Shown: piece after piece, positions 3,001 to 59,800 of the stretch
How the letters are laid out: each line of letters begins with the position of its first letter
Position numbering within the stretch: the first letter of the stretch is position 1
NCBI GenBank assembly: GCA_947034885.2
Contig: OX344752.2
Span: 2,914,001-2,978,000, forward strand
DNA: 64,000 nucleotides
Reading direction: 5' to 3'
From: Thuidium tamariscinum
Taxonomy: Eukaryota > Streptophyta > Bryopsida > Hypnales > Thuidiaceae
Program-made: the position numbers and the translations under genes
The notes under the pieces: model-generated
Databases searched by the model: none
The model's input: only the letters and a program-made list of their open reading frames with translations
Told to the model about the DNA's origin: nothing

Positions 3001-4450
3001 ATGGCAAAAATGCCAATTTCAACCCTAGAAGGATGTTGAAGACTAAACATATTCAATGAATGACTTTCAAAGAGATTGTTGAAGCAAAAAATACACTCTA
3101 CCCATCCAAGTGTAATAACTTTTGACTAATTACATTAGAAAGACGGCTATAACCTTCAAGGTTCAAAGCATATTTGATATTGGACAAGAATTTTTCATCA
3201 TTTTTTCTTCAAAAGATTATGAAATGGTGTAGAAAATTGTTTACTTCATTTTTGCAAAACAATATTTAAAATTTCTTTCATATTTAGTAGCAAAATATAA
3301 CAAAGAGAAGGAAGGATTTGTTATAAACTCTCCATCATTATTGTATATTCATTAGAAGAAAAAATTAAACTTCAAAATATTAACTTTTCAAACCCAAATG
3401 AAGTACTCAAATCCATGGATGTATGTTATAACCTTTAGGGGTTTGATAAACAACCCATTCGCTATGTCATCCAACATTAGTTTATGGTGACAATCTATCC
3501 TTTAGTATTTAGATATTCAAAGTAATTAAATATTAAAGGAGAATATTTAATCTTAAAGGTTTATAAAGTTGATATTTAGATGCAATATGGATTTTTTGAT
3601 ATAGAAGGTGTATAAATTGAGGTATATGGTAGTGAAACAAGTTTGTATCTATAGTGAGCCAAATCCATTAATACATAGTACTTTGAATTTGAATTATTGC
3701 CTTCATCTCCTTCACATCTTAGAAGCTCAAAGATGGCCACATATTCTAGGTATATGATGTCTCATTTGAGTTCAAATTTAGATGTCAAATTGACATCCAA
3801 ATGAAACTAAGGTGCTAATTGTTGAATCATCGATCCAAAGGTGCATGTCTTGTCATATTTTAGTATAAAACTCATATTCAAAGACCAATATAGGGCAATT
3901 GCATGAAACACTTTTACTATTTTTTGTCACAAGTTGAAAGTTGAACTTGTTTTCTTGCATAAGTAATGCAAAAAACATCCAATGAATACGAAATTCAAAA
4001 TAGAGGTTTCTCTTGCATTCATAAATGTACATAATTTTTTTCAATTTTAAGAAAATTAGTTTAGTAGGTCGGATGGAATTTCCATAATATGTCACAAATG
4101 TAGTTTTCATGGTTTTCAGTACTTTTGAATACCCAAGCTTCTGAATTTGAAGCTGAGGTTTGGTGGGATTGTTCCTCTACTGAACTCTAAACTTTTCACG
4201 GGAGGGATTTGAAAACCATTGCTTCTTTTGACTTTTGCATAGCCACAAAGTAGGCTTCATTTATCATAAATTTGTGAGCAACGGATCATGTAAATCCTCA
4301 ATTTTTTTTGGGCGTTTTCTTGTACACAAAGTTCCTCAAAATGGCCATTTTTTTCCTTAATTTTTTAAGCCCAAGACCTAATTTCCAAAAATGAAAATCA
4401 AGGTAGGTATTTTCTAGCATAAAAATACAGTCTCTACCTGATGATAGTAC
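54..4450. other. AT-rich intergenic DNA, no gene recognised
   Basis: Bases 54 to about 950 have intermediate composition and could be the 3' flank of a gene to the left. After that the sequence is strongly AT-rich, with short poly-A/T runs and frequent stops in all frames. The small open frames here (for example 459-725 and 2731-2931) show no domain, codon bias or neighbouring splice signals. I see no tRNA, LTR or clear inverted-repeat element. Confidence 0.6.
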
Positions 4451-4765
4451 TGAAGCATTCTAGGAAGTACTGCATAGTAGTGGTGGAGCCCTATAAGGCT
4501 GACAAAATCCGACGTAGACATGATTGGGCTTCAATGTTGCAGTTCTGACTAGATGGATGGCATCCTTGATGCAGAAGCACCTGAACACCGCCGCCAGCAC
4601 CTTAATTTGATCAGTCATTATTCATTAGGGTTCAACGTCATTGCACACTGGTGAATTTTACACCTTCGTCAATTGTCATGCACAAGCGCATCAACATGAG
4701 GTTTAGGGGTCTAAGGTTGTTGATTATGTATTCAATTACATTGGTAGGGTACTTATTAAACACAA

Positions 4766-7700
4766 ATGGATAGGCAGGTGCAGCGAAGTCGGCCAAGTCC
4801 GAGGACTCGAAGCTTAGAAGCAATTGCAACGAGGGAGAACCAAAGACAAGAGTGGAGAGATCGGCAGCGTCGACATCGTGATAGAGAAGGTGCATGGGAC
4901 CATGCATTAGAAGATCAGGGTGAACTGCCAGCTGCTGCAGATGTAGATCTTCATTGGGGAAGCGGCAGACATCGGAGTACAGTGTGGAGAAGCGCACAAC
5001 GAATTGCGGCACAATTGATTAGGAAGTTGGAGCGTCTTGAGAATCCTGCTTTGCGCCATGCAGTGCTAGAGAAAGTATTCAGTAACCAACACGTGTGACC
5101 TCTACTCCCCGAGTATTTTCCTAGTCCTGAGGAAGCTAGAGTATAGAGCAACATTTTGAAAAACATTCGGGCAGACTTGGCGGCCTTGAAGATACCTTAT
5201 TCCTCTGGAAGGCTTGCTAGGAAGCGAGCCATCCTCGAAGCGGTTGTGTCGGAGCTTGATTCGGACATCAACAACTTCCACAAAATTCTTGGCACACGGA
5301 AGGAAAACTTATTGGCTGCTGTGGAGCGGCTGAGATCAACTACAACATCTACGTCTGGAAGATACAACATTCCAACGCGAAAACAACGGGAAGGTGGCCT
5401 CACTGATGAGATCAAGGCAGCTGTAATTGAGTGGTGGACTCATGAAACTCGAGTTAGCCCGGGGCGATGGGATGTACGACGGAAGCGCCAAGGACGTTGC
5501 CTCTATGATACACATAGTGCGCATTTGCTGCTAGAGACTCAGGTGCACCCTTCCATGTAGCCTTTCTTCTTCTAGTTCATCATCATTTATTTGTAACTAT
5601 GTTGCTTAGTTGCCGCACTTGCTTTACACATGCATCCTACATTCCAAATACTTTGCTCAGATGCCACACGCAATGAGTGGTTAGCATAAGGGTCCTCTCT
5701 TGAATGCTTCATAGGATTCTATATTTCATAAGTCAACTCCCTTGCCATCATATGTCAATTGTAGGTAAATATATGTAATTGTAGACTTCTTTACACAAAA
5801 GACATCACAGGAATACTCATGATTTTGAATCTAAAGCAGCAATTTACGTCATCACATTTATAGTTGTAGAAATATATGCCATTGATCCATCATCATTCTT
5901 CTACATAGGAATAGTACTTCAAACTTTCAGTGTATAGTAGGCATGATGCACTGTGAGTATTGTCAAAATTTACAACTCTCATACTTGCTGTACGGTGTAC
6001 ATGGCTGCCATATATTGGGAGATTCATATAAGATGGGAGATGTTGTTGTTTCAAATAGAAATCCACAAATGCTACCTTCGATCTGAACTGCCTCATGGTA
6101 ATTTTGTCTGCAATGTCATGATGATAACATGTCTCATGAACAGTTTTGCTAATGTTGTCTCAAGATAGTATATTTCTAGTATAGATCATGTATGAAAGAT
6201 TGTCAATTGTATTGGCTTTGAAGACTTCATCATGCTACAGAGTTGTTGTAACCACTTCCTCTATCCTTTTTCAACTACTGAGTATTTTGTATACTACTAC
6301 CTTGGCTTCAAAACTTCTTCTTACATATGGAGGGAGTCCTTCTACGACGTATAGGTATTTTTACGTGTACTTGTAGTATAAGTTCATGACCTTTCCTATT
6401 CCATGCTTTCACAACCAACACTATGTAGAAATATGTAGTGTAGTGTAGTAGCCCAACTAGTACTAACAGTGACGCATGCATTACTCCCATGCTCAGTGAT
6501 AACCTCTAATGTCATTGACGTAGTACATGTTCAGTATTATGTGTACTACAAAATGCACTAAGCTATCCTATGTGTTACACTTCTCGTGCATCTTCAACCT
6601 TCTTACTATGCGCACTCTAAAAACGTATTGTGTTCACTCCCTTTTGAGTACTATGCATTGCTTACATGTTATCTTCAATTCTGTAGGTCAGTCTTTGTCA
6701 TCATTGAGTACTATATAGTACCACGTCAATGCTACCACAGACAATTCAGTGTTTTCATTACAACAAGTAATGGAATACATACGACGCACTATACTTCTAG
6801 TACTAGAACATGTCTCAACTAGTACTATGCAGTGCTTTCCAGTCCTAATGAGTATTATGTACACTTATTGAGTACTGCACAGTTCTACTAGGGGTACTAA
6901 ACTGAAAATGCTAGTAGCTTTTGCTCTTTTGTTATCATTTCTGGCACAATATACACATATTCTTAATATCCTTGTTTCCTTGAATACTTCATGTACTGAT
7001 AATTTTTCTTATATTCAATTGCTGCAGATGCAATTATACCATCGTTTTGTTGATGCGAATCCCCAGTGGTCCATCCAACATCGTGCATTTTTTAAATTGC
7101 GCCCATTTTTTGTCATCAAATGCAAAAAGCGCAATGTTTGCTGCTGTCGATATCACATTCAAGTACTCTATCTACTGGAGGCCTTGAATGCCTTCCGTGA
7201 CCCACAGCAAGGTGCTCATGTCCGCTTCCTATGCACATGTGTATGTATTGTTTGTGACCTGGACGACACTGGAGTTTGCAATGTGGGTAGTAGCTGATTC
7301 TCTAAAGTCACTACTTTATGCGAGACACTCCTATGTCCAAAAGGCGAGGATCAGGAATTCCACAATCTTCAGTCCCTCCTAGGAGCTTGTAGTAGATGTA
7401 GTGTCAAATTCTTTAAGGTATGTCCATGAGAACGGGTTGAAGATGCTGCTTGCACTATTCAATGGAAGCAGTTCCAATACGAAGTTGTTGGGACATCAAC
7501 AGATGGAAGGCCAAAAAAGAGAATTAAGGAGGTTCACATGACAACTTCCTTCCCTGAATTCCTAGATTTCTTTTATCCTACGATGGAGCATTTCATTCGG
7601 CACAATTTCATAGCAAAGTGGCAAACTAAGCAAGCAAAGCTACTACAAGCGTGTCTACAGGAAGGGACCATTCTAACTCATATAGATTTTGCTGAGAACT

Positions 7701-10700
7701 ACACGTTTACACCTCAGAATGAAATTCAGTCCATGTACTATCACTTTGACCAAATCTCCATCTTGGTGCAAGTGACATATTCTGCAGATATTAGTGACGA
7801 TGCTTTGCAGAGAGGTGTTCAGTTAACTAGGCATATCCACTACTACATCTCAGATGATAAGAATCATGATACACACTTTGCACAGCATTGTCTCATGCTG
7901 CATTGGCGTTGGATGCAATCTAGGGGGTCACCTCCTCAATTTCACTACGTTTTCAGTGATGGATGTGCTGGTCAGTTCAAGAGTGCCAAGGCCATGTACT
8001 TTGTCAGCAGGTGAGTTCATTTTCTATTAATCTCACTGCCATACTCATTGTTGCCTTGTACACTTCAATAGGACGTAGTAGTATGTAATTTGATGTGTTA
8101 CTTTTCAATTGCAAGTTTGTTTGTGGGTGGAATTGCATTTATAAGTTAATATGATACCATCTTCATAAAGCCCTGCCAAACCACATACATCTCAGCCTCC
8201 TCTAATTCTTCAAAATTCACTTTCTGTAGGTACCCGTCTTTGACCAGTGGCTGCAAGATGATGTGGAACTATTATGGTACTGGGTACGGAAAAGGAGAAT
8301 GGGATGGAGCTGGAGCCGTTGTGAAAAGGGCACTTCGTCAGGAACAACTCTTGAATCTACATCGACGCCTACAGAATGCTGCAGATTGCGTATTCTTTCT
8401 GGATGCTACTATGGCTGGGCAAGTGCCAACTTCGAATGGCGACATCAGGTCATTTTCTCTTGTCACCTGCATTGATGTTTCTTTTGTAGTCCCCCACACT
8501 GCACTTCAAATTTCAAACAACTAATTGCAAAGAATTGAACATCTGTATCTAGGGTACTCTGAGAGATCACTAATGTTGCTTTGGCAACAATTGTAATGAG
8601 AACTGTACAGGTCATATCGATATTTTCACCTCATAGGGATCAACGATATTGACCGTGGAAATCGTCATGCTTGTGATTCCATTACTGGATCCTCCAAATT
8701 TCACTCTATCTTTGCAGCGGTGTTGTGATGTAAAAATATACACTATTTAAAATGTATACGTATTTTGTATTTAAATTAGATTTTAGAATTCAAGTTCTAG
8801 AATCTATGTTTAGGTTTGAAGTTCAACACTAAAATGTTGAACTGGAGGGTTTTTATGAAGTCATAAGATTTAGAGTCTTAGGATTCTTCTTTGACTTTAG
8901 TTTTTACCTCCATTTAGTTTAGTTGAAGTTTAATATCTAATTTTAATCTTATATTTTATCTATATGTTTAGAAGATAAGATTATGAGTTAGAATTAGTTT
9001 ATTTTTTAGTTTGATCTTTGAGTTTCATTGGCTTTGGAGAGTAAACTTGAACTTATGTTCTTGTTCTTTTCCTTTGGCCAATAGTTGTTTGGAGATCCAT
9101 TTGGGCATCTCCCACTTAACCTAGGGTCCAGTAGGATTGGTGAGTGATCTTCTTCCTCTTTTTAAGGGGGTTTGGAGAGTTTTTCTAGAGGAGTTTTTGG
9201 GTTAGTGTGTGTGGAGACAGAGTTTTGTGTGTGAGTGTTAATGGGGTTTTGAAGCCGAATTTTTGGTTGATGTAGCTCATTGAGCATTGAATCTTTGGAA
9301 TTGAAACTTTGACATCTGATTCCTTGTGATTATATTTTTTCAAATTGTGTTTGCAAGTTGAATTTGGACTTATGAATCAAAAGTTATAGAATTTTGAAGT
9401 TGAGAGGACCTAAGGCCTTCCATTGAGAAGAGCAAAGGCTTAGACTTTGAGCCATAACTTTTGGAATATTTTTCATCTTGTCTTGAGATTTAGAGGGATT
9501 GTATATCATTGTAGTAGCTTTCCAAAAAGTCATCACCCATCTGGTTTGGAGTTTGGAGGAGAAAGTTATGAGGAGTTGAAGGTCTGGAGGAAATTTGGAG
9601 TTTGGAAGGAGAAAGGCTGTGACTTGAAACGACCACAACTTTGGGTGTGTTTCTCATATGTCTTTGAATATTCTTGTGGAGTTAGTTTGTAGAATTTCCT
9701 ATCCATAATGAGTTCATTCACTTCATTTGAACTCTTATTGAAGAAGTTATAGAGTGTAGAAGATAGGAAAGAGTGTTGCCTTTATAGTTTAGAAACCCGA
9801 GACTTTGTTCCTTATTAACTTTTGGACAGAGTCTTAGTTTATCATGAAACTTTCTGAGATTGTGGATATTAGTTTGAGGATTCTAAATTGCTATCACACT
9901 TGCAATTAGGATTTGTAGTTCAAAAGTTATAGAAAAATATAGAGGCAGTAGTTGGTTGCCAAGGGATTTGAGGAACCTCTACTTTGCACTCTAATAACTT
10001 TTAGACAGTAGTTTAGATAGAGTTGAGATTTGGAGGGTGTTTTTCTTGTAAATTTATCTTTTCAAAATGCTATTACATTAAGTATTTGGAAACTTAAGCC
10101 ATCTGTAGCACTAGAAAGAAGGTCGCAGCTAGTGAGAAGAGAAGTTTTCTAGTGTTCTTTGGGGTTCTTTGAAGTTCTTTGGGGTTCTTTGGGTTCTTTT
10201 GAAGACTTGAATATTCGAAGGCCGTACATGTCGAGGACCTAGCCTTGTATTGTGGCTTGTGGCTCGTTTTCATTTCTGTTATTTTCAGCCAGTTTTGGAG
10301 GCTAGTTGAAAATTCAATTTCTGCATTGTAAAACTGTTGCGAGCCGTGGTTATCCAGTAAGCGCTCCATTTTGTGTTTGTGGCGACGAAGTGGGGTTAAT
10401 GGCCCACATGGTCGATCTTTTATGTTGTTTCCATTGATGAAAGGTGCTTCCTGGTCATCGTGGGTTTGAAATTTAGGGGCCCATCATCCGGACGGTCACT
10501 CGTGTTGGCTGTCCCATTTTACCCATCCGAAGCCTTGTTTCTTATTACACACCTTCACCCTTGGCCCTATAGAGCCAGCCACAGGATAGGCCAACGAATG
10601 AACAAGCAAAGATTCAAGCAAAGATTCGAATGAAGATCAAGAGAAATTCGAGTTTTGAAGACTTACCCAACTTCACTCATCAACGTGCAGCTAGACACCC

Positions 10701-11345
10701 TGTGTGTTCTCTAAGCGCGCTCCTCTCTACCTAACAGTGGATGAAAATGACCCCACAAAATTATTAGTGCGGCGCTTGTCTTGCTTCTGCGACCCATACT
10801 TGGAAGAAGACTTTGTTCACTGTGAAGATAAGAATTATGTGAAGCCTTGGCGCGCTATTAAGATCCAACCCCGAAATATCAACTTTGCAGCAGAACAACT
10901 CAACGTTGCAGAAGATGATGGAAGCTGGGAATATGAGGTTGATGAAGAATCCATGGCCAACTTAGTGGCCCCGGGAGACAATTTTGTGGTACCCGCAGCT
11001 GTAGACAATGCCGAAGGAGTGCAATTTTTCATTCTCCAATGCCAAGTTGCAAAGCACACGTTGGAGTCCAACTTAGAATGCGCTTGGGGAGGACATTTTG
11101 AAGCTGGAGATTCTGTCATTTGTGGTACATATTACCAGAAATGGGGACGGTGTGATGCCCACAACTATGTATATCTACGAAATTCTCGACCTGCTTATGT
11201 GGACGCTAGTATAGTCCTCGCTTGCAAATTTCAAATGATTCCACGACAGCACAGGGTGAAGGGTGGTGACGCTGTATATAGTTTGTCAGCCGATACAGTC
11301 GATGTCATCAACACAGCACTAGAGGAAATGGATGCTGCATTGTAG
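4766..11345 (+). pseudogene. DFAENY-type DDE/RNase H-like transposase, broken by four stop codons
   Basis: Five exons join in phase through GT..AG introns: 4766-5542, 7028-8010, 8230-8448, 8611-8719 and 10695-11345 (913 codons with the stop). In-frame stops lie at 5096 (TGA), 5144 (TAG), 7295 (TGA) and 7427 (TGA). The N-terminal part is charged and helical. A Cys/His cluster (KCKKRNVCCCRYH, then GACSRC) follows, then an RNase H-like core with IDFAENYT (Asp about residue 479), NEIQSMYY, VFSDGCAGQFKS (Asp about 570) and GYGKGEWDGAGA (Glu about 610), where I would expect His in place of Tyr. The last exon carries SCFCDPYLEEDFVHC, a second Cys-rich segment. I recall similar proteins from animals and non-seed plants, but cannot name the superfamily with certainty. 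The 1975-bp last intron is unusually long. Expression as one protein is not possible as read. Confidence 0.72.
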
Positions 11346-11824
11346 AGTTTTGAAGTTGTCTACAATGATTAAGTCCTTAGCCTTCAACGCTTTCTACATT
11401 TATTCAGGAATAGTTCTTGCTATACATATGATCTCTATGTACATCTTTCACTATATGAAAACATTCAAAATCTTCATCAGAGAAAAAGGTATGCAAATAG
11501 CTTGTAAATACTCTTGCATGTGCTCTTCTGGTTCACATCATGCACTATGGTTTGCAGAAATAAATAATAGTTCTCCAGAACATCATTCCAAGAATGGCTT
11601 CATTAATAGTCACATATAAGTGCATTCATTACTATGAACACAATACTGCAAATGTTTTCTAGAATGTTACATACAGTTCATGAAAAGAAGGAATTCCATG
11701 CATACATTCCATTCCATTTGTAGGAGCCTGAACATGAAGTTATAGGTAGTAAAATATGCTGTATGGCTACAAAAAGAAGGAAACTACTGTAATAAATGAT
11801 GCTAGTAAAATTGAAGCTATACTG

Positions 11825-12238
11825 CTATGGAGGAAATTTGGGGCTACTATCCTTCAAGAGTAATGCCAAACTGAACTGCCTTCTACGTTGTCCATTTAAG
11901 CCTTCATTCGTTGTTGCACGCGATATTACATTGGGCACTATCCCACTTCTACGCCCTGCTGATACTACTAATTTTTGCAGACATTCAACACATTTGGCAT
12001 CGTTCTCCTCTACTAGCTACTTCAAGCTAATCTTGTGTCTCTGAGGAGGCGGAGGCTGTGGTTTCAATTCCACCGCACTCATAGTTTCCAGTGTGGTGGT
12101 GGAAGAAGGGTTGACAGTCATTCCAGAGTTCAGTGCATGCGAATTATCTTTGGGTTCCTCTTCTTCATCACTCTACACAATCTTCCTTTTCTGTCTTCTA
12201 TGAAGAGGTACTGCCCGCAGTACCCTTCTTTTTTCCAT
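11825..12238 (-). pseudogene. second, antisense reading frame of the transposon, with two internal stops
   Basis: On the minus strand a 138-codon frame starts at ATG 12238-12236 and ends at a TAG at 11827-11825. It is interrupted by TAG at 12175-12173 (codon 22) and 12019-12017 (codon 74). Between the stops it reads like real protein: a basic start (HRRQKRK), an acidic stretch (SDEEEEPKD), a Ser/Thr- and Pro-rich part (ELKPQPPPPQRHK) and a C-terminal part with CVEC. It lies tail-to-tail with the transposase gene, about 480 bp from its stop. I do not recognise the family. The basic segment could be a nuclear localisation signal. An accessory transposon protein is an inference from position alone. 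Confidence 0.45.
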
Positions 12239-13319
12239 GAAGCCACTATATTTCTGTGTTCAAGCTATTGCGAGGACAACATGCAAGAAGCATTGTACTA
12301 GTTACAAAACCATACAGTCAATTGGGTCTTAACTAAATCAGAAAGCTATTGGATGCTTACCCTAAAACGAACACTTCCTTAGCTGAATGGGATCCATGTC
12401 AAGGAAGATAAAAAAAATTGCAGAAAACAAGAATTCGTTGTTGTAAAGTAGGTTCTCTATACGTCGAAGTACTAGGACATTATAGAACTCCATATTGTCT
12501 GATTTTTATAAATTGGGAGTAGTGGTTGCTAAATTAAGCAAGCATGCGTCTTAGTAAAGGTGAACCAAGTGGAATTCTACACGAAGACAACAAAAAAACT
12601 ACAGGGAAGCCGACCTATATATCTAGAACGTGAAGAACACCTTATCTCTACAGTCCATATTTTGTACACAATCCAATAACAAGTGAACATTTACGGGTGA
12701 ACTTCAATTGAAACGTAGAAAAACCCTAAATCCCGACTACAGCCAGAAACAATTGACACGTTCAGTGCAGAAACCGTAACGTACCTTCTACGACGGCTGA
12801 ATTCGTTGTGCTGTGAAATCAGATGCTCCCTCAGCAAATGTTGTCTTCTCCAATTGCAGCACTAACGTCGCCTTCTCAAACAATAGCAACAACCATCCAC
12901 ACTTGGAAAATCGTGAAAGACTTGAACCCTACAGCGAAGGTTGCGGAATCACCCAAAGCATTCGCCGCCAGTACCTCACGGTCGCGCTCCAACTTTCTTC
13001 TGCTGTATTAAAAATCTAAACACGTAACAATTGCCTTCCATACATTTGCAAAGCACTTCCAACATTCCCTTCAATTTTGAAATCGCGCTAAACCGGAAAC
13101 GCAACACAGTTGCAGTTGACAAAAAAAACCATTCCACGATGCCGCATTGATTGCTGGCAACCACGAACGGACGAAGACTAGGATGAAAAACAATATTTGC
13201 AATTCATTCGTGGGCAACATCCACGCCTGACATCCAAAATGAAGCACCCACGTGTCGTTCCATCGACAGATCTCATTTTCAATCTAACGGCCCTTGTTTC
13301 ATCGTCCAAACTCGTTATA
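12239..13319. other. right part of the transposon, no gene recognised
   Basis: Moderate GC, especially 12780-13020, on both strands without a frame that continues across plausible splice sites. It could be the promoter and leader of the minus-strand frame at 11825-12238. The short open frames at 12813-13019 overlap each other and look accidental. Confidence 0.4.
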
Positions 13320-13548
13320 CACTAGAAGAAAACCATGTTGAAAATGCTGAAAACACGTCATGTGGTTTGTGTTGAGTCCCTGTTTCAGAACGCAATGAAA
13401 ATGTAGTGAAAACACAAAAAAACGTAGAAAAAGCATTTTTCTGCGTTTTTTTGTGTTTTCACTGCATTTTCATTGCGTTTTGAAACAGGGACTCAACACA
13501 AACCACATGACGTGTTTTCAGCATTTTCAACATGGTTTTCTTCTAGTG
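13320..13548. mobile_element. hairpin MITE with CACTA-like ends
   Basis: A 229-bp palindrome: arms of about 115 bp differ at only a few positions and meet near 13434. It begins CACTAGAAGAAAACC and ends with the exact complement GGTTTTCTTCTAGTG. It is flanked on both sides by ATA (13317-13319 and 13549-13551), a 3-bp duplication as expected for the CACTA (En/Spm) superfamily. The transcript would fold into one long stem. Confidence 0.85.
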
Positions 13549-14870
13549 ATAGTACGCACAGTACTCATAGTAGTCATAGTACTGTCAAAGGAAAAAGCAA
13601 AAACGCAACAAATAGTACAAGTGTTTTGTGCAATGACCCTATATAATACTATGTACATAGTTCTTAATTAGTAATCCTTGAAGGATTAAATCCTATATGC
13701 ACAATGGGATTGTTTTTAGTGTTTCCTACTTGACCTTATTCCTCTAAAGTCCTAAAGTCCCAAAGTTCCTATAGGGCCTTTTGTAACTTCAAGTAGGTTT
13801 GTATAATCTCAATTTTTGACCTAATTTTTGAAACTTTTTTGAAAACAAAAAATCAAATTAGATTTTTAGAAATATTATTTTCATTTCAATTGGTGCTTGG
13901 GAGCAATAGTTATGCCACCCTAAGTCTAAAAAGTAACACAAGGTGCAACCCATAAAAAATCACATAAATTTTTATTTTTTAAATATTAATTTTTTTTCTC
14001 AAATATTATATTTCTGTCTACATTTGAGGCTTTGATTTTTTCTATTTGGACCAATGATGAGAAAGTTATAGACAATCTTTTTTTCAGGCAATTTAAACAT
14101 CTTTATGGAAAAACAACAACTATAGAATTCATTTTTGAATACAATTTTTCAATTTTTTTGCAAAAAATTACTAGACTTAATTAAATTTTCTCGCTAGAAC
14201 AATTTCACCATTGGGATTATTATGTGTCAAATCCACCCTATAACTATTACCGATTTAGTTTTTTTATTCAACCTCAAACTTACTCCCACTTGATAATTTT
14301 TTAATGAATGAAAATCAAGTGCTTTTTTCTAAATTTTTTTTCTAGATTTTCAATTCAAGTATTCATAATAAAAAATTAGAAAATCAAAATCAATAGTAAA
14401 AAAGTTATAAATTAAGTAAATCTAAAGCCAAAAAATCTAGTCTAGAAAGGTGTAAAATAACTTGTTTTTACTACTTTTAGTACAAAAATTTTGCAATCTA
14501 TACAATCAAAATTTTTGAAATTTCCTCAATGCATTTGTATACTAGTCTGATGCAAGATTTTTTAGCTAGATATGGAAAAAAATTAGGTATTTTTCTCCTT
14601 GCAACAGAAATGACAATTTTGAGTGTTTTCTTATCGACAAAAGGCTTTGAAATTGTAAAGGTTAAACATTACATGTACAATGGAATTCTTTTCAATGTTC
14701 CTTAGTTGATCCTCAAGCTTACATTTTCATTCATTTGTATGAACAAACTCTCAACCTTTAAAGCAATATATTTATCCTCACATGGCTTGGATTGTATACC
14801 CAAAATTTCACCCACCATGTCTTTGTCTTGACTAGGATATACCCTAAAGTGTGCGTGCCACAAGATCTAG
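13549..14870. repeat. AT-rich DNA with a copy of the 0.9-1.1 kb TTAACC..GGTTAA element family
   Basis: About 13720-14675 shares internal blocks with the elements at 21672-22812 and 52946-53876, including a TTTGAT...TATTTGGAC...AAAGTTATAGACAATC segment near 14030-14080. It ends near a GTAAAGGTTAA at about 14674. The flanks at 13685-13735 and 14665-14715 are similar to each other in direct orientation, so two related units may abut. Ends are approximate. Confidence 0.4.
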
Positions 14871-15386: not shown

Positions 15387-18300
15387 ATGATGGGGAAGCT
15401 ATGGCGATGGGCGCTGGCCGTGGTTTGTTTACTTGTTGTGGTGAAAGCCGTGATGGCGGGGTTGGGGACGAACGCGCCAGGTCTTCCGGGTTGCAATTGC
15501 GAGGAGGATTGGGGTTTGCTTGAGCTTGTGACGCGGTGTCAGTTAGCTAGTGACTTTCTGATTGCACTCGCGTATTTCTCCATTCCTCTGGAGCTCGTGT
15601 ACTTCGTCAGCTTCTCCAACGTGTTTCCGTTTCGATGGATCATCATTCAGTTCGGGGCGTTCATTGTGTTATGTGGGTTGACGCATTTCATTGCGATTTG
15701 GACGTATGGGCCGCATTCGTTTCTGATTATGCTGGTGCAAACGATTCTCAAAATTGCTACGGCGTTGGTGTCTTGTGCGACGGCGATCACGTTGGTTCAT
15801 GTTATACCGACTTTGCTTCATGTCAAGGTGAGCCAATTTCTGGTTGAATCCCAAAGAAGTTCGTGTTTGATGCAATTCTAGGGTTTCAAGGGCAGCAATG
15901 GTTGGTATAGCTCTTTTCAAATTTGGAATTTTACGTTCTTGTTAACATATGAGAGAGGGTTCCGACACTTCAAACATGGGTATTTTGGTAGCTATGAAGG
16001 TTCACAGGTTTCAAAGGTAGACGACCTGAAATGAGCACTTGAGAAGATGTTCAGGTGGTGTACGTCCTCTTAATCAATATGTACCGATTGTTCAAGGTGA
16101 TAGGTTGACGATTTTGGGTGTCCCTACGTTTGTTCTGTTTAGGGTTTCAATATCGGTTGCTAATGGTATAGTTTTACACGCTTTCTTTAGGTGCGGGAGC
16201 TTTTTCTGAAGCACAAAGCTGCCGAACTGGATAGAGAAATGGGTCTCATCAAGGATCAGGAAGAGGCGGGACGGAATGTTCGTATGTTGACGAATGAGAT
16301 TCGAAACTCCCTGGATCGTCACACCATTCTGAACACCACCCTTGTGGAGTTGGCCAAGACCTTGGAGCTGGCAAACTGCACCATTTGGGAACCGACTCAC
16401 GAGGGTGACGCGGTGAAGCTCACTCACGAACTTGACAGACGATATCTTCAGGTATCTTTTACTCACAATCTCTCCTATCAGTTCAATTCTGGTATTCTTT
16501 TCTTACGTTGAGGGTACTCGTTCTCACTTTAAGCATTTCAGTCAATCTGTAGGAATGTGCTTTCATTGGAAGATCAGTTAAATAGGTGTGGAGAGATCAC
16601 TTTGTGTACGAGATTTAAAGCTGTTGAGATCAATTCTCCCCACTATTTATGAATTTCTTATGCAATCATTCGAAGTGGGTGATTGTGAACCACTATTGAA
16701 GGGACAGTAGGCAACCTTACTTCCATTCAATGATCACTGGCCATAGACATTTTGCCTTGCTTACACTTAACTTATTGAAGGCTGATGAGGTGTAGTATTG
16801 GAGATGAATTACTGTTAGTAACAGGTATCAGTCAATAGTAAACGGGATCAGGTCCCGGTTGGCTTATCCTCTACCTTAATATTGCTTTTGGTTCGTTTAT
16901 TTTTGTATCAGCTGGAAGGGAAAGAATAAATGTGCACTGGATTGTGATCCGTGTTTTGATGTATGATGACTGTCACTAAGGGAAGTATGCTTGTTTACAG
17001 GTCCCGGTTACTGTTCCCGCAGCTGACAAGATTGTGCAGCAAATTGTTCAAACCAGCGCAGCAATAATAATTCCACCCGTGTGTGCCCTTGGGAAGGCAA
17101 GCAATCACCGTGTGTTAGCAGGTGCTATGGCAGCAGTTCGTCTGCCTTTGCTGTACGTTTCAAACTTCAAAGGAGGCACACCTGAAGTCGTCAATGCTTC
17201 GTACGCCATCTTGGTTTTGGTTTTACCTGGTGAAACTGGCCGAGTGTGGACAGCCCATGAGATCGAGATGGTGGAAGTTGTGGCAGATCAGGTAACACTC
17301 GCTGATGGTGTTGTTGGCTTCATTTGATACATCGTGGAGTTTGTGATACCCGCAACGTTGGAGAGCGGTTGGGATCACTCACCCTGACTCAAATTGAAGA
17401 AGTATTTGAATCACTGTAGAGAATTTTCGCATGGAGGTAGGATCATTCTAAGCAATTGAGAACATGACTTTGTGGAGCTCTAGTTTGTGTTCAAAAGGAA
17501 TCCAGATTCTTGTTTTTGAACGTATCGAGGCAGCTCCACAAGAATGTTATGTACATGATTTGATTCAGTATTGGGTTCATTAAGAAAATGATGATGAATT
17601 CAGTAGAACTGGCAATGCAGGTTGCAGTAGCGTTGTCCCATGCAGCAGTGTTGGAGGACTCGCATCGGACAAGGGACGCGCTAGTGGATCAGAACAAGTC
17701 CTTACAGCTTGCACGGCAAGAAGCCGAAACTGCAGTTCTTGCACGCAATGATTTCTTGGCAGTCATGAATCATGAAATGCGAACGCCAATGCATGCTATC
17801 ATAGCTCTGTCTTCATTGCTACAAGAAGCAAAGCTATCATCAGAGCAGCGGAGTATGGTGGACACTGTTGTGAAAAGCAGCAGTCTGCTTTCTACGTTGA
17901 TCAATGACGTGCTCGACTTCTCCCGGTTGGAGGATGGCAGCTTAAGCCTGGAAATGCGTCCTTTTGAACTCTCCTCTGTGTTGCGAGAGGCTGAGAATCT
18001 TGCAAAACCAATGGCAAAGGCGAAAGGCCTGGATTTTTTCTTTGACATAAACATGGATGTGCCTCAGTGTGTAATAGGAGATGAGAAGCGGCTCCTTCAA
18101 ATTACCTTGAATATCATTGGGAATGCGGTGAAGTTCACGAAACACGGCTTTGTGTCCGTCTCCGTCAGCCTGGAAAAGTATGACGCCAGTATTAGGCGGG
18201 ACCCTAGAAACCCGAGCTGGCGCCCCATTCCATGCGATGGTTTTCCGTACATTCGGATTGTGGTGAAGGATACAGGATTGGGTGTGAGGGAAAACGATAT

Positions 18301-19451
18301 CCCTCGCCTCTTTAACAAGTTCGTGCAAGCTGACAGTACAACCACGCGTCAGTACGGGGGCACTGGACTAGGCTTGGCCATTTGTAAGAAGTTTGTTCAG
18401 GTTTGTTTTTATTGCACCTCTTTTTCTACATCTTAATTCCTTACATTTTATGCTTTTGCATTGCTTTGAATCACTGAAAGATCATGGCAGCTGTGTTTTT
18501 TTCCAATTGATAGGATAATCCGTCACTTATATCGTTTTAACCAGTACCGGTACATAAAATTATGCTTTCACCGAGAGACAAACTATCCTTTCAAATTGTT
18601 ATCACACTGTATGAATTTCTTCAAAATGGAAGAGTTGTATAGCACAATAATTGACGGTAAACAATCCCATTCTATTCAAGGATGAGATTTCGTGGACAGG
18701 TAGCCAAGTCATGCTTACGTCCCTTTCTAATTGACGGCCAACTAAATAGCTGAGTTGCTGGTGGTGACGGGTCAAATCAATAGGAGGCAGAATCAGACCG
18801 CTAACGGTTTTTAGTATCTTCTACTTCATAGTTTCGTCCACTATCATTATTTAATCCTTTCTGACAATCCTTTTTATCCTGCAGCTAATGAATGGACACA
18901 TCTGGATTGAAAGTGAGGGCTTGAACCGCGGTTCGGTGGTGACCTTCATCGTGAGGTTACAGGTACAGTCCGATTCAGCCAAGGAACGAGACCGGCCATC
19001 TCGGGAGGAGCAGCGGAACAAAGAAGACCTGAAAGGTCTCAAGGTGTTGGTGACTGACGACAACGGCGTGAACCGCATTGTGACTCGCAGGTTATTAGAT
19101 AGGTTAGGGTGTGACACTACTGTAGTAGAATCAGGACAACAGTGTCTGGCTGCTCTATCGCAGCCCGGTAGCAACTTCAGGGTGCTGCTGCTGGACTTGT
19201 GCATGCCCGAGATGGACGGCTACGAAGTGGCCAAAATCATCAAGCAGAAGTTTCGGCCTGGGGAGCCTTTGGTGGTGGCTTTGACAGCCAACACAGACAA
19301 AGGGACCAAGGATCGCTGTCTGCAGATTGGTATGGATGACATTGTGTTGAAACCCATCTCCTTGCAAGAGATGAGCGCGGTGCTGAGTAAACTTATACAC
19401 TACCCGAAGAGCGGTTCTCGGTCGCATAGTAGTTTTATTAATGGAAGATAG
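15387..19451 (+). CDS. ETR: ethylene receptor, ETR1-type hybrid histidine kinase
   Basis: Ethylene sensor of the ER membrane; in plants it represses ethylene responses through CTR1 until ethylene binds. Five exons, all joined in phase 0: 15387-15827, 16191-16451, 17001-17291, 17621-18400, 18885-19451, giving 779 aa (ETR1 is 738). A hydrophobic N-terminus (about 1-25) precedes the CNC motif (Cys36, Cys38) and three transmembrane helices; Asp56 and the copper ligands Cys96 and His100 (VLCGLTH) are present. A GAF domain follows (about 180-331), then a histidine kinase with H box [10 protein letters not shown] (His382), N box [11 protein letters not shown]1 KDTGLG, F box FNKFVQAD and G2 GGTGLGLAI. 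The receiver has Asp649/Asp650, phospho-acceptor Asp695 ([10 protein letters not shown]), Thr725 and Lys747. All kinase motifs are intact, as in subfamily 1, while the extra N-terminal helix resembles subfamily 2. The start is the first in-frame ATG (a second follows at once). Confidence 0.97.
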
Positions 19452-21671: not shown

Positions 21672-22812
21672 TTAACTTCTAAAGGACCATTGTCCCTTTG
21701 GAAAACAAATGAGATTTTGTACATAACCAACGGTCCCACCTTTTTTCTTGATTTTCAAAATTGTTTTGAAGATAGAAAAATTGATTAGCTTCATAAGAAT
21801 ATCATTTTTTTTCAATTGGTGCTTGGGAACAAAATTCATGCTTAAATAAACTCAAAAGAGGGGCGAAGAGGTAGTTTAAAAAAATCAATTTGAGTTTTAA
21901 AACAAATTAATTTGAATTTTAAAACAAATTAATTTGAATTTTAAAACAAATTAATTTTTTTTTATCATAGATTTTATTTTTGTCTACATGGAAAGCTTTG
22001 ATTCATTCTATTTGGATTTGTTAGGACAAAGTTACGAACAATCTTGTTTTGGGGGCAATTGATCTTCTTGAAAAAATATTTTGTAGAATTTATTTTTGAA
22101 TGTAATTTTTACAATTTAAGAAAAAAGTTTGAAATGGTTTATTTTGATTTTTAGAAAAATCTCACCATTGGAATTAGTGCATTTTAGTTCCATTTTAGAG
22201 ATATTAATAATTTAGATTTTCCTTCTATCTTATGCCTACTTCTACTTCACAATTTTTTAGAGAATAAAAATAATTTTTTTCTTGTATTTTCTTTCAATGG
22301 AACTTTCAACTCAAATATCCACTATAAATATTTAAAGCTCAAAACTATGTAGTGCAAAAAATCAAAGTTAAGAAGGTTCAAAGTCAAATAATCTAAAAAG
22401 AGTAAAATGGTGGTTGTGATCTGATTGCTCTGTTAGACGTTGTGCTGTCAACTCTGGTCTCCTAAAAACAAGTTTTCGCCGAGGCTTTTTGCCTTTGGTC
22501 CCTTGTACTGTTTCCCCTTGCAATGGAAATTGTCCTTTGTTCAAAAAAAAAAAAAAAAAAAAGTCAAATAATCTAATCCCACAATGTATTGAAAATTTTA
22601 TTTTTTTCACTTTAAATGCAAATATCTTGCAATCTATATAGTTATAATTTTTGAAATTTTTTCCACATATTTTCATACTAGTTAGGTGTAAGATCCTTTG
22701 ATTAGATGTGCAAAAAAAATAATTCTCAAATTTTTTTAACTCTTTTTTATAGAAATGACAATTTTAAGTATTTTTTTTCCTAGAAAAAAATTCTTAGTCC
22801 TTTAGGGATTAA
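21672..22812. mobile_element. 1-kb TTAACC..GGTTAA-type element, interrupted by a retroposed insert
   Basis: Left end TTAACTTCTAAAGGACCAT; right end AGTCCTTTAGGGATTAA, the near-complement. Without the insertion at 22396-22575 it is about 960 bp, close to the 931 bp of the intact relative at 52946-53876. Internally it has the shared TTTGATTCATTCTATTTGGA and AAAGTTA..AACAATCTTG blocks at about 22000-22060. No coding capacity, so non-autonomous. Confidence 0.6.
22381..22575 (+). mobile_element. retroposed insert (SINE or truncated LINE) with 15-bp target duplication and poly(A)
   Basis: The sequence AAGTCAAATAATCTA occurs at 22381-22395 and again at 22561-22575. Between them is a 165-bp insert that ends in a run of 20 A (22543-22562, the last two shared with the duplication). 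The insert is more GC-rich than the host element and has no ORF. A long duplication plus A-tail is the mark of target-primed reverse transcription. I see no clear tRNA-type A and B boxes, so a 5'-truncated LINE tail is as likely as a SINE. Confidence 0.8.
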
Positions 22813-29074: not shown

Positions 29075-29077
<3 letters not shown>

Positions 29078-29797
29078 GTGATTGCAAGAAAGGCCTCCCA
29101 TTTTTTGTCTCATTTTGGAATAATACTCATTTTTTTCGGGAGTACTTTAAAAATAGAAAAATAAAAAAATTTAAAATAAAAAAATATGTTCAATGTATAT
29201 TTCTTGAAGAAGAAGGTACCCTATGAAGGAAAAGTGAAGGAAAATTTTCTAAATAGGTGAACTAGACAAGTGCAAAATATCATGAAAATGAGCACTTTTA
29301 CATTTTTTTGTAATAATTTATTTTTAAAAAAAGTAAAAATTGGAAATTTGAGAAGGACTAATGGTAATTACATTTCTTCAAAAGAATTATTTTGAAACCA
29401 TTTTTGATGTTCAGAATTCTATGTGCAAGGGGCCCCTATTTGCATCAATGTAGAGGATATACAATAATGTTTTTTTTAAATATATATGATCAACTTATAA
29501 ATCTTTAGTGTATAAATAGACCATACAAATTTCAAGTCTACATCATTAATTTTGGATACTCCTTAGTACTAAAAACCCCTAAATTGCAAAATGTGATAAA
29601 TTAGGTAAATTAAAATTTAATTAGAAAATGTTTTTTGGAAATTTTTGAAAAATAATGAATTTCTTTACTATCAAGTTGGACATCTTCAATAAAAATTTCA
29701 AGTAAATTGGCTTAATTCCCCAAAAGTTATAACCAATGGCATAAAAGTCACTTAGATTGTGACGCCAAATAGTACAGCCCTTTCTTGCAATCACCCA
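29075..29797. mobile_element. 723-bp TA-flanked element with TGGGTGATTGCAAGAAAGG ends
   Basis: Exact terminal inverted repeats of 19 bp: TGGGTGATTGCAAGAAAGG at 29075 and its complement ending at 29797. Both sides are TATATA. Non-coding and AT-rich inside, thus a non-autonomous element with TA target preference. A diverged relative may lie at about 42578-43295. Confidence 0.75.
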
Positions 29798-41443: not shown

Positions 41444-42577
41444 TGCCCTACAACATCTTGCCAAAATTTGCCTCTTATAATATTTTGTGCCATATAAATT
41501 TGGTTGCTTCTTTAGCTCCCATAGCTAATTTAGAGCCTCTAATTGCAAGTATGAATTCAGAATAGGATATGCAATTTTTACCATGCACGGAAAGCAAAAA
41601 AATTTAGTGTTTTTCCTTTGGAACGAGTGAAGGAGTGAATTCCGCCTTGCCCCTTTTTAACCCACCCTTTGAACACATCTAGGTGTAACACTAATAATCA
41701 ATTTGGAAAACTTGAATTCAAAATGGCAATCAGAGAGTCCTATTTTGGTGATAGGACACAAAGCAATGCTTAATTATACTATGCAAGATATAATCAGTTT
41801 ATACATTTTTATTGTCCTTGGGCAATTTGGAGAATTGTTCTCCTAGAATCACATTTGAAGAGGGACACTTGAAAAGAAAAAAAAGGGGCTCAGAGACTAC
41901 TACACAACAATTTAGAGCATGGTTTCTACAATGCACATAGGCACCAACTTAATACCCATTGGACCTTAGAAAATGCACATTCGTAATTTTGAGATGAAAG
42001 TGAGATTGTCGATCATAAACATAATGTGACTTCAAGGTATCCCAAACTTGATGCATTAGACAAGGCTCACACTTCCATTGCATATTGGCAATAAGATAGC
42101 ACATATGTTTGAATAAATAGGATATTTGAGTAGTGATGCTCTATGAGGTTCTTTCTACTATATAAATGATGACTTTTTGTATTATCTATACTAATTGAAT
42201 TTTTCATATTGATGAAGAATTTTGACAAGAGCATAGGTATCAATAACATTCAAAGAGGAGGAGCTCTGTAAACATAGTTGGTTAAAAGAATTATAGAGAC
42301 TAAAAACTTATAGTATTTCAAACTTAAAGATCATTCATCCAAATAACACTAATTATTATTATTTGTAAAATAGTTTTTCTTGATCTTGATACTCTAATTG
42401 TTTGTAGATGATTCCACCAAACAACGATAAACACATGCAGGTGATCTTGGGTAGGTGCCTATGAAGTCATTTTTCAACAAATGTTCTTCAAATTTTGACA
42501 CAAGGTGTATGTATACCTCCTAAATGGGAATATAACTTTTTTTCTCAATCAAGAGCCCGAATCAAAGCTATATTGCT

Positions 42578-43295
42578 GGATTGTTGCAAGGAACACTTGT
42601 CCTAATTGGGTGTCCCCTAGGCCTTAGATAGGTGGTTTTTTGGTCATAACTTTAGCATAGTATGTCCATTTTCTATGAAATTTTGAAATAAATGTATATC
42701 CAATAATTGTGGATGTTGCATAGTTTTTGAAATTTTAATATATTTGTTTGCTATTTTTAAATTGTTCTCAATTAGATGTCTACTTTAGCCATTTAGAGGG
42801 GTTTTAGTACTATTTCCAACCCTAAATTGAAAATTTGAATATGAAGACTTCTATTATAGTTACACAAGTTTGTGAAGAGATTTTCTAAAAATAATAAAGT
42901 ATCCACCTTCCACATGTGCTCTAAGTGCACTACCGAGGTGCATTTGTATAGAACACAAAATATTTTTCTTGAAGATGAAAATGGGCAAGAAGAAGTACCT
43001 TCAAATTTTAAAAAATTGATTATCTTAATGAATTTTTTTGAGTTTTTTTATTATTTAAAAAAAATCAAATTCCAAACTATCTATTTTCTTGCATTCCTCA
43101 TTACTATTTGAGAGGGTATAACTTTTAGATATAAAATTTTCTAAATTAGAATTTTCACCCATAAACTATGTAGAGTTCTTTACAAATTATACATATTTTA
43201 TTTTATTTTTAAAAAATTTACTCCAAAAGTCACAGTACTATAGTATTTAGACCATTTTGAGCCAAAAATGTTAAGTGTTTCTTGTAATCACCTTG
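42578..43295. mobile_element. possible diverged relative of the 29075-29797 element
   Basis: TGTTGCAAGGAACACTTGTC near 42582 and the complement of GTGATTACAAGAAACACTTA near 43275-43295 form imperfect inverted ends. They resemble the 19-bp ends of the 723-bp element, and the distance is about the same (718 bp). Ends are approximate. Confidence 0.4.
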
Positions 43296-52945: not shown

Positions 52946-53876
52946 TTAACCCCTAAAGGACCGCAACTATATTTCCACCAAAACCACTCCAAAACTGCCA
53001 TTTCTAGGATAGCTACCAAATTTTAGAAAAAAGAACATTTTTGAAATAATGTAATCATAGGGTCTTTTAGTGCACTAGTTTGAGAGCATGTAGATAAAAT
53101 TTCAGAAAATTCTCCCATGTAGATTGCAAGATATTAATGTTTGAAGTTACAAAAATCATTTCTTTACCATTGCAAAAATTGAGGCAACTGCACTTCAGAC
53201 GGCCACATTTGTATGAAAAAATGTCCAAAATGGTTGTAACTCCTTGCATTCATTCCTCAATTCAATTTGGCTACATGCTTGAAAATTTTCAAATCATTTG
53301 GAATTGTACAACATCTGCAAAAAAAATAGTAAGTAGAAAGAAGTAGAGAATGATTCAAAATACTAAATTGTTAAGAATTTATTTTTGAAATTGAAGCTTG
53401 CCAATCCCAATGGTTTAAATGTTGTAATAAACAATCTACATCTAATGTTTCAATTTTTTTCCAAAATATTGAAAATTGAGTAAAATAAAGGACTTCAAAG
53501 TTTATTTTAGAGTTGAGAATCCATAACTACCCGCAAATTAAAACTCTTCATAACTTTTGACTCATTAATCCAAATGGAATGATTCAAAACTTTCCACATA
53601 TATATAAACTTATGAAACCAATTTCAAATTTTTACTTCCAAAAAATGTAATCTTTTTTACATGCCCGAACTGCCCAAGTTGAGAAAGAAACAACATATTA
53701 TGCAATAACTTTTTAACCATGCAGTCAAAAGTCACAAAATTTGTTGGGCTTAAAGATATTATTCATCCACACCTTCTTTTAAATTTTGGTCCCAAAATAT
53801 GGAAATCTCTGATCACACGTACCTACCCAAAATTTCTATGTTGCCACAAAAGGCACTTTGGTCCTTTAGGGGTTAA
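52946..53876. mobile_element. 931-bp mariner-like element with TTAACCCCTAAAGGACC ends
   Basis: Left TTAACCCCTAAAGGACC, right the exact complement GGTCCTTTAGGGGTTAA, with TA on both sides (52944-52945 and 53877-53878). No transposase frame, hence non-autonomous. The most intact copy of a family also seen at 21672-22812, 56479-57133 and probably 13720-14675. Confidence 0.8.
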
Positions 53877-57133: not shown

Positions 57134-59800
57134 TCATCTACAATAATATACTGCAATTTCACTATAATCTTATTCCTAAAGGACAATTGTCTCATCAAAG
57201 GACAAACAAAAATGTGGCAAACTTAGTTCATGATAAAAAAAAAAAGATGAATTAATCTCAGTGTTACAATTAATATGTTTTGATTCCATCTCAAATTTGT
57301 TTTATGATTTAGTTTCAACTTTGTCTTCTTCTAATTTCTAATAAATAAAATTTTAATGAATGAAAGTTCAAGTTTTTAAGAAAATAAAAAATTTTAGACT
57401 TTCAAATCAATTTTCTATCATTAAAATTTTTATAAAATAAAAATTATAAGTTAATAGGATATAGTATGATAAGATGAAAACAAAATGTATTTATTCACTA
57501 TAATTCTAGAGTCTCACAATTTGTAAAGCCAAAAGCTTTAAAATTACTTGTACAAATTGTTTTTCAAATGTCATGCAAGATCTTATTGTTGGATACATAA
57601 TAAATTCTTTTCTCGATCCATTTTCATTCTTTGAGATAGAGTTGGAAATTTTGGAATATTTTTTTTGGAAAAGATCATCTTAGAACTTCAAGAATTAAAG
57701 ATAGTATATCAAAAAATGTCAAAAGCTAGAACCATATGAATAACACTATTGATTAAGAAAATATCTCAAAGGATTACATCATTTAATTAAATGAAATTTA
57801 CTTCTTTTTATTTTTAAGACATATTTCTTATTAAAATGTTCATATTTTATAATATGGAAATAATCACAACCAATCCCTAGAAGTTTGAAAGTGGTCAACA
57901 AACCCATAAATATTATAAAGTGTAAAACAATAATTTGGTAGTAATATTTTACTAAAAGTATATTATAATCTATAAACCATATATATGTGGTTGAGTTTAC
58001 CAATAAATATACAATTCTATAATTCAAAATCATTTTCTTTTACATTTCAATTAATTCCATGAAATCAATGGTTAGAAATTCAAAGATGCATTTTCGTCTT
58101 ATATTAGACTAGTAGAAGGGTGGTCATTGGGACAACAAAGAATAGTGTCCAAGGCCTATATGGGCACTAGTTTGTGCCAATGTCAACTTTGGGAACCTCT
58201 TTGATACTATTTTTAAGTTAAGTTGAATGCATTTGATTGTATAAGAAAAAATGAATGTCAAGAAAAATTGCACTATTCATAATTTTGCAATGATTACAAT
58301 ATCTCATTCAACGTAGGGATGTTGGAATAACCAAAATGATCAGCAATTTTAATTTCAACTATTAATATTACATTCATAAAGAATTGAGAATATTTGTTGA
58401 TAAATTAGTATGCAATTTGAAGCCCATGGTGTGATGGCATTGTAGATTTGACTATGCTTGTGCCTATAACCTAAACTTAATTGTAAAAGAATGTCAATAT
58501 TTATTTACATTCAATAAATGACTTTACAAAACCTAATATTATAAAAAAGATTTTTTTCATTGAGTATTATTTGGAAGTTACTTGAACCTAATTGTAGCAA
58601 ATAGAAATGGAAATTCATATATTATAGTATTGTTGATTTTTTTGCAAAAGAAGGTATTAAATCTATAGATTACCTTGTATTTTTTCAATTCCTATTTGAT
58701 TTGTATTTAGTCATAAAAATGAGCTTTTTCCAATTTGAGTCTAATTACTATAGTGACAGTTATTGAAATTAGTTCTAATGGTAATTGAAATTTGAAAGTT
58801 TTATAGTATTTAATTTAAAAAAATACATATATTCGAGTCTAGAACCTACAACTACCGTCTAAAACTTCTAAAACTATAAAAAGATTTTAAATCAAGTCTA
58901 ATTCCTATTCCTAATCAAGCAAAAGAAATGGCTTATAAAGATTTCAAATGAACATGTGATTTCAAATTTTATAGCTTATAATAAATATACAATATTATCT
59001 TTGGAAAATAATAAAATCATTTATAAATACTAATAAGACTGAACATGTAGTGTGAAGGATTTTGAAGTTTGTATGCATCATGATAGGCTTTGTTTTTACA
59101 AAATTAATCTAATGATATGCAAATCCTATTGCCAAAGTTGTATATTTGAACATAAATGACAATAGCATTGCTCTACTATCAAAGCAAACTTACACATTAT
59201 GGCTCTTCTCCCAATTGCATATCCTATTGACATCCTTTAGGGTTTCAATGTAGATGAACATATACTTAAGGACGCTTTACATCCAAAAGTTGGGCCATTT
59301 TCCTTAATTCCAATTGTAGCCTTTTGTTCAATCACAAGGGAGGATTTCAAAATTTTATTCTATTATATACAAGTGAAAATTTCAACCTTATCCGATTGCA
59401 AGTGAAGACTTTAGCCTTTTGTCCAATCACAAGGATTTCAAACCTCATATACAACAACTTGATCCATCCTCCAGGTGTAAAGCATCCCTTGTTGTACAAC
59501 CACCCATTTTTTACTAAGATCCATATAAGATGTAAGCTAGCAAGACCCATTCTTGTCCACGTACCCCATTCCATCATTATGTATTAATGGTGCACATTTC
59601 TTCCTAGAATGTATTCTATTAGATCATAAGGATAGAATGGATAACATGAATTCATAGGAATGAATGTGTTTGTTTTAGTTATTTCCAACTAAGGCTAGAA
59701 TACATTTCTAATTAAAGTTTGGAATTTTTTTTTCCTTTTCAAGATTAGAACTAATAAGGTCATGACACATGTTCCAAAGTAGTGAATAAGAAAGTAGTTC
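57134..59800. other. very AT-rich intergenic DNA
   Basis: No gene. Long runs of A and T. The minus-strand frame 57779-58033 is AT-driven. A segment at 59290-59460 repeats TAGCCTTTTGTYCAATCACAAG twice. Confidence 0.45.

Follow-up and report, generated by a model that had tools for sequence, protein, structure and literature searches.

What kind of mobile element left the split, transposase-like reading frames found at this locus, how far that element extends and what else it once encoded are the questions addressed here. The locus lies in a 64,000-nucleotide stretch of DNA that was analysed as a whole (C4:2914001-2978000; hereafter the window) and was compared with the genome of 363 Mb in 19 contigs. 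The results make it likely that a large DNA transposon with terminal inverted repeats (TIRs), of Sola type, is present in the window as a dead copy, and that complete relatives of this copy carry a second gene encoding a RING-like finger and a SET domain.

The decayed and internally deleted copy occupies 3893-13639 on the forward strand (9747 bp, two later insertions included), a longer extent than the 4450-13310 given in an earlier note made from the letters of the window alone. Local alignment and pattern matches in the window placed the left TIR at 3893-3931 (forward strand) and the right TIR at 13601-13639 (reverse strand), the latter agreeing with the right end of the relative K1, and a 4-bp target duplication, TATA, flanks them at 3889-3892 and 13640-13643. 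The local alignment of the two ends scored 28, the best of 200 dinucleotide shuffles reaching 23; when another gap penalty and shorter stretches were used, the score was 22 and the best of 60 shuffles 21, so that the shuffle support is modest and weak by itself. Two patterns derived from the TIRs, with up to three mismatches allowed, matched solely these two ends within the window. The homology of K1 (C1:5099801-5116200) and K2 to the window copy begins at 3888-3898, and K1, which carries both ends of the window copy, stops at the equivalent of 13639, its final 91 bp being 89% identical to window 13549-13639. Young copies in four subgroups start abruptly, with differing flanks, at GGGTCATTGCATGAAAC, GGGTGGATTCAAGAAAG, GGGTTGAAGTACACTAG or GGGTGATTGCAAGAATG, and the young transposase copies open with the same end sequence as that at position 3893. 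The TIRs of the family are approximately 40 bp long and have the form GGG...CCC. TGCA was rejected as the target duplication of the window copy; it sits within the inverted repeat. K1 is approximately 78% identical to the window over 3888-5743, 7017-8715 and 10739-11445 and 64% identical over 6108-6737, and it showed no target duplication (flanks TTTA and GTGA).

The window also contains two short elements with ends like those of the transposon copy, M1 (29076-29796, reverse strand) and M2 (42577-43292, forward strand), which are homologous to one another and to window 3893-4397. This homology, a step in base composition near 4400 and a 9-bp direct repeat, ATAGTACTG, would all suit a nested arrangement, in which the transposase element would cover 4453-13575 only and would have inserted, duplicating 9 bp, into a short element that was already present and ended at 3893 and 13639. 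The genome copies refute such an insertion into a 0.7-kb element: the young transposase copies start with the end sequence of 3893, and the K1 and K2 boundaries given above coincide with the outer ends. In addition, further 9-mers are common to both regions, and a junction scan, whose length-dominated scoring discriminated poorly, did not pick out the ATAGTACTG repeat. We therefore regard nesting as very improbable and retain 3893-13639 as a single transposon copy. Because young copies and K1 share the ends of the window copy, M1, which has the same kind of ends, and M2 are best read as short non-autonomous relatives. M2 has TTGC on both sides if its start is taken as 42577, and M1 is flanked by an AT repeat that is uninformative on duplication. 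End-like sequences also occur inside the large group 1 elements, at 8014, 11985 and 13682 in L018 and at 8325, 12214 and 13911 in L020, which suggests that short relatives are nested in these long elements.

The transposase occurs at no fewer than 150 places in the genome, a lower bound because 150 of the 271 candidate places were scored; the copies are dispersed, and many contain stops. One young end pattern, with up to three mismatches, had 319 genomic matches, 172 of them forward and 147 reverse; the reversed control gave no match. Two full-length copies of 13.5 kb are flanked by TTCT (L024) and CCTA (L025), and AAGA lies on either side of a short element in L030, the empty site of which is seen in the related L029 with a single AAGA and no insert. 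Aligning other genome copies, a check that the earlier note had suggested, thus revealed shared terminal repeats and 4-bp target duplications, and its reading of the locus as a DNA transposon is borne out by these features and by the repeats throughout the genome. The 9 kb given there applies to a single copy that is damaged and internally deleted. Complete relatives, which have the second gene, measure 13.5-14.1 kb and others at least 16 kb, the shared sequence running from the left end for at least 16.2 kb in the L018 group and at least 16.4 kb in the L026 group. The strong conservation of protein motifs among subgroups might also be expected if the gene were a cellular one, ordinary or domesticated, with a domain like that of a transposase, an outcome that the earlier note had said would overturn its proposal. 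However, the 150 or more dispersed copies, many with stops, together with the inverted ends and target duplications, refute this for the transposase family, and we give it practically no weight. A local excess of transposase places was observed on contig C11 (17.5 Mb, approximately 5% of the genome length), which has 19 of the 150 listed and is perhaps a repeat-rich or sex chromosome.

Exon-by-exon alignment with relatives showed that the transposase of the window copy has four coding exons, all on the forward strand. Exon A (4766-5542) contains the stops TGA at 5096 and TAG at 5144; exon B (7028-8010), which encodes the Cys-rich regions and the DFAENY and SDGC motifs, contains TGA at 7295 and at 7427; and exon C (8230-8448) encodes the GKGEWDG motif. 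Exons B and C are contiguous in relatives that lack the intervening intron, such as L028 and L034, exactly at the predicted splice point, which confirms their junction. Exon D (8611-11342 overall) consists of a first piece at 8611-8715 and a second piece at 10739-11342, the latter encoding a C-terminal Cys-rich part and followed by a stop at 11343-11345. The multi-exon structure proposed in the earlier note is thus upheld, but its count of five falls to four, since two of its exons are apparently one exon D split by an insertion of approximately 2 kb (8716-10738) that is absent from L011, L013, L014 and L015. This insertion may be a solo LTR, to judge by its TG...CA ends and a 4-bp near-duplication, GCGG/GTGG. 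A cluster of AGTACT-centred repeats in intron 1 (6450-6880) resembles sequence found close to each end of the coding region; these repeats are perhaps candidate binding sites for the transposase.

A second insertion, nested at 13320-13548 and absent from K1, has CACTAG...CTAGTG ends with ATA on both sides. It is a near-perfect palindrome of 229 bp with arms of 113 nt that are 97% complementary, and it looks like a CACTA-type foldback MITE. The four in-frame stops mean that the window copy is dead; it also carries the two insertions and has lost its second gene. Beside the transposon lies a gene for an ethylene-receptor-type histidine kinase (15390-19450; ETR1_N, GAF and HisKA in Pfam), which marks the window as plant DNA, and an old AT-rich repeat family, with approximately 62-68% mutual identity, is present at 13800-14640, 21734-22787, 53320-53656 and 57254-57702.

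The motifs DFAENYT, FSDGCAGQFK and GKGEWDGAGA and the two Cys-rich regions were found within the stretch where the earlier note had placed them and are conserved at the protein level in relatives. D220, D311, E351 and D353 are invariant in seven of seven aligned rows; in a larger alignment, D311 is replaced by Asn in one of 14 rows (L022). The acidic residues are spaced D-(90)-D-(39)-E or D-(90)-D-(41)-D, depending on whether E351 or D353 is the third, and the N-terminal part is rich in Cys and His in the seven aligned copies. Profile searches, likewise proposed in the earlier note, found no match at a credible score to a curated family in Pfam, NCBIfam or PHROGs. The weak matches (ANT 0.13, Sep15_SelM 0.0048, DUF4007 0.084, topoisomerase VI 0.024 and two PHROGs from 0.043) are single-member, and those having a curated cut-off score far under it. 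A sequence and profile search of the PDB matched no solved structure to the transposase core and, for exon D, gave nothing beyond weak matches. Six motif words did not occur in the papers searched. Among the hypothetical proteins of animals, those with motifs of the DFSENY and GHGKG type have the same motif order and, we presume, probably belong to the same transposase family. Among viral contigs, a protein search found no relative; pattern searches gave zero and one match, the latter (L001) falling in a phage protein by chance, and none of the 35 pattern matches from an alignment-derived search was confirmed. Bacterial and archaeal genomes gave eight pattern matches, with the other motifs in none of the frames inspected (700 of 2666 residues for L009), and plasmids gave no transposase relative.

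The remainder of the window copy (11446-13639, reverse strand) matches the right end of K1 in the pieces 12536-12614, 13171-13311 and 13549-13639, and the body of the RING-SET gene, which precedes the right end in K1, is gone; no SET match was found in the window element. A minus-strand frame at 11826-12238, of approximately 138 codons, interrupted by two in-frame stops and rich in Lys and Glu in places, is perhaps the remnant of an accessory gene. Complete relatives, including ones close to the window copy, have a series of open frames downstream of the transposase gene, which are encoded by the other strand and so converge with it. In the direction of transcription, these frames encode a Lys/Ser-rich start, a coiled-coil-like stretch, a RING-like finger (C-x2-C ... 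C-x-H-x2-H-x2-C), pre-SET, SET and post-SET, with an acidic linker between the finger and pre-SET in group 3. From their order and strand, we infer that they form one gene. In Pfam, group 3 matched Pre-SET (PF05033; 1.6e-8, 35.5 bits, cut-off 29.1) and SET (PF00856; 1e-8, 36.0 bits, cut-off 22.4), and group 2 matched SET above the cut-off (9.6e-13, 48.9 bits), whereas zf-RING_2 reached 24.5 bits in K1 and 19.0 in group 2 against a cut-off of 27.3. The nearest solved relatives of the SET part are the H3K9 methyltransferases EHMT2 (3.1e-32) and EHMT1.

The RING-SET gene lies between both element ends in L024, L025 and K1. SET matches were obtained in 13 of the 22 long loci (K1, K2, L018, L020, L022-L028, L036 and L037); the nine others are represented by 9.9 kb each, which may stop short of such a match. 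Throughout the genome, 78 of the 150 transposase places listed are followed, at most 16 kb downstream, by a SET match on the other strand; the remaining 72 have no SET partner among the SET loci listed. The corresponding counts were zero for the same strand downstream, zero for the opposite strand upstream and two for the same strand upstream, and random placement gave a mean of 0.43 pairs and a maximum of three in 200 draws. From the side of the SET loci, 78 of the 113 listed are paired and 35 have no transposase among the places listed; the unpaired ones include at least one host gene, for an SRA-SET protein on C8.

The surroundings of the motifs GW[GS], NH[RK] and LTWDY and the post-SET Cys residues are kept in five element SET regions, with WDYR for WDYG in K2. 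NH[RK] is common to all element SET regions compared, and CGDAN and LTWDY are present wherever that exon was seen; the host protein on C8 has NHSCKPN and ELTYDYG where the elements have NH[RK]CGDAN and LTWDY. We take the element motifs NH[RK], CGDAN and LTWDY to resemble those of SUVR1/2/4. SUVR4 is described as depositing H3K9me2/me3 (PMC7218100), and SUVR2 as having a role in transcriptional silencing (PMC4260354).

The placement of the element among known superfamilies was considered with respect to duplications, domains and size. In piggyBac and Kolobok, the target duplication is TTAA; the duplications of this family are TTCT, CCTA, AAGA and TATA, and membership was rejected. Mutator-like elements (MULEs) were rejected as well, since they are described with duplications of 7-12 bp (PMC10741241), whereas those found here are 4-bp and Pfam detected no MULE domain in the transposase. 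The family fits Sola in element size, in its terminal repeats and acidic motifs and in the 4-bp length of its duplications. This is a match by feature description and not by transposase sequence; since similarity to a Sola transposase is a defining feature, we write "Sola-type" and not "a Sola". The earlier note had left the superfamily uncertain, which is only partly right in view of this fit by features. Sola elements are described with 4-bp duplications, inverted ends, three acidic motifs and a similar size, and they occur in a land plant, all as in this family (PMC10741241, PMC9033089, PMC3627910); Sola has been reported from a moss (PMC10741241, PMC9033089), Sola1 being listed for Physcomitrella. 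The TIRs of approximately 40 bp are inside the range of 11 to 1124 bp for Sola. By contrast, the duplications of amoebozoan Sola2 are given as AWWT, and those seen here are not AWWT alone; a RING-SET gene is unmentioned for Sola in the parts of the descriptions compared. The lack of matches among curated families and solved structures would also suit a separate, unnamed TIR superfamily, likewise with 4-bp duplications, as would the third acidic residue, which could be E351 or D353, both invariant, when the Sola transposase is described as DDD (PMC10741241). Against this stand the duplication length, size range and inverted ends, which are those of Sola, and the moss reports just cited; we consider a separate superfamily a lesser but real possibility and Sola type the better fit.

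Plants silence transposons by H3K9 methylation, and an element that carries its own gene of this type may use the same chemistry. In the mechanism we envisage, the transposase would bind the inverted ends through its Cys-rich, zinc-binding-like parts, and its acidic triad would cut and join the DNA, with insertion at a 4-bp staggered site. More speculatively, the second protein might methylate histone H3, most likely at Lys9, on the element or on target chromatin, its RING part might be a ubiquitin ligase or binding module, and the methylation might steer copies into heterochromatin or shelter them there, whereby many copies would be tolerated. The window copy is a deletion derivative that has lost its second gene and later gained the stops and two insertions; short elements like M1 and M2 would be mobilised in trans. 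As a tentative interpretation, to which we attach less than even confidence, a giant plant transposon lineage took up an H3K9-type methyltransferase gene long ago, fused it to a RING-like module and diversified with the second gene fixed, and itself writes the silencing mark of the host to steer insertion into heterochromatin or to shelter there. The SET protein could instead be an anti-silencing or decoy factor and not a writer of repressive marks, in line with such factors in other transposons, namely Vandal regulators and fungal TET/JBP enzymes (PMC12730594). This seems less likely: the SET motifs and post-SET Cys residues kept in the five regions compared suggest an enzyme, with the proviso that a writer could still counter silencing via another residue. 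The retention of a SET gene in several diverged subgroups and dozens of copies makes the use of host silencing chemistry by a transposon directly testable. The present data also give a first anatomy (ends, duplication, gene model and partner gene) of an abundant transposase outside the curated libraries searched.

A limited search of the open-access literature found no report of a SET gene in a transposon of plants or of this lineage. SET genes in transposons are already known from oomycetes: HarbingerS and MuDR of Phytophthora are likewise DNA transposons with a captured SET histone methyltransferase gene (PMC12730594). They differ from the present family in transposase superfamily and in their host, an oomycete; in the plant element, the convergent gene encodes a RING-like finger ahead of its SET part. 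The order pre-SET, SET and post-SET is the same as in SUV39-type H3K9 methyltransferases (EHMT1/2 and plant SUVR/SUVH). Unlike these enzymes, the element SET domain is borne by a transposon and lies beside a RING-like finger; the SRA-SET protein of the host, encoded on C8, contains an SRA domain.
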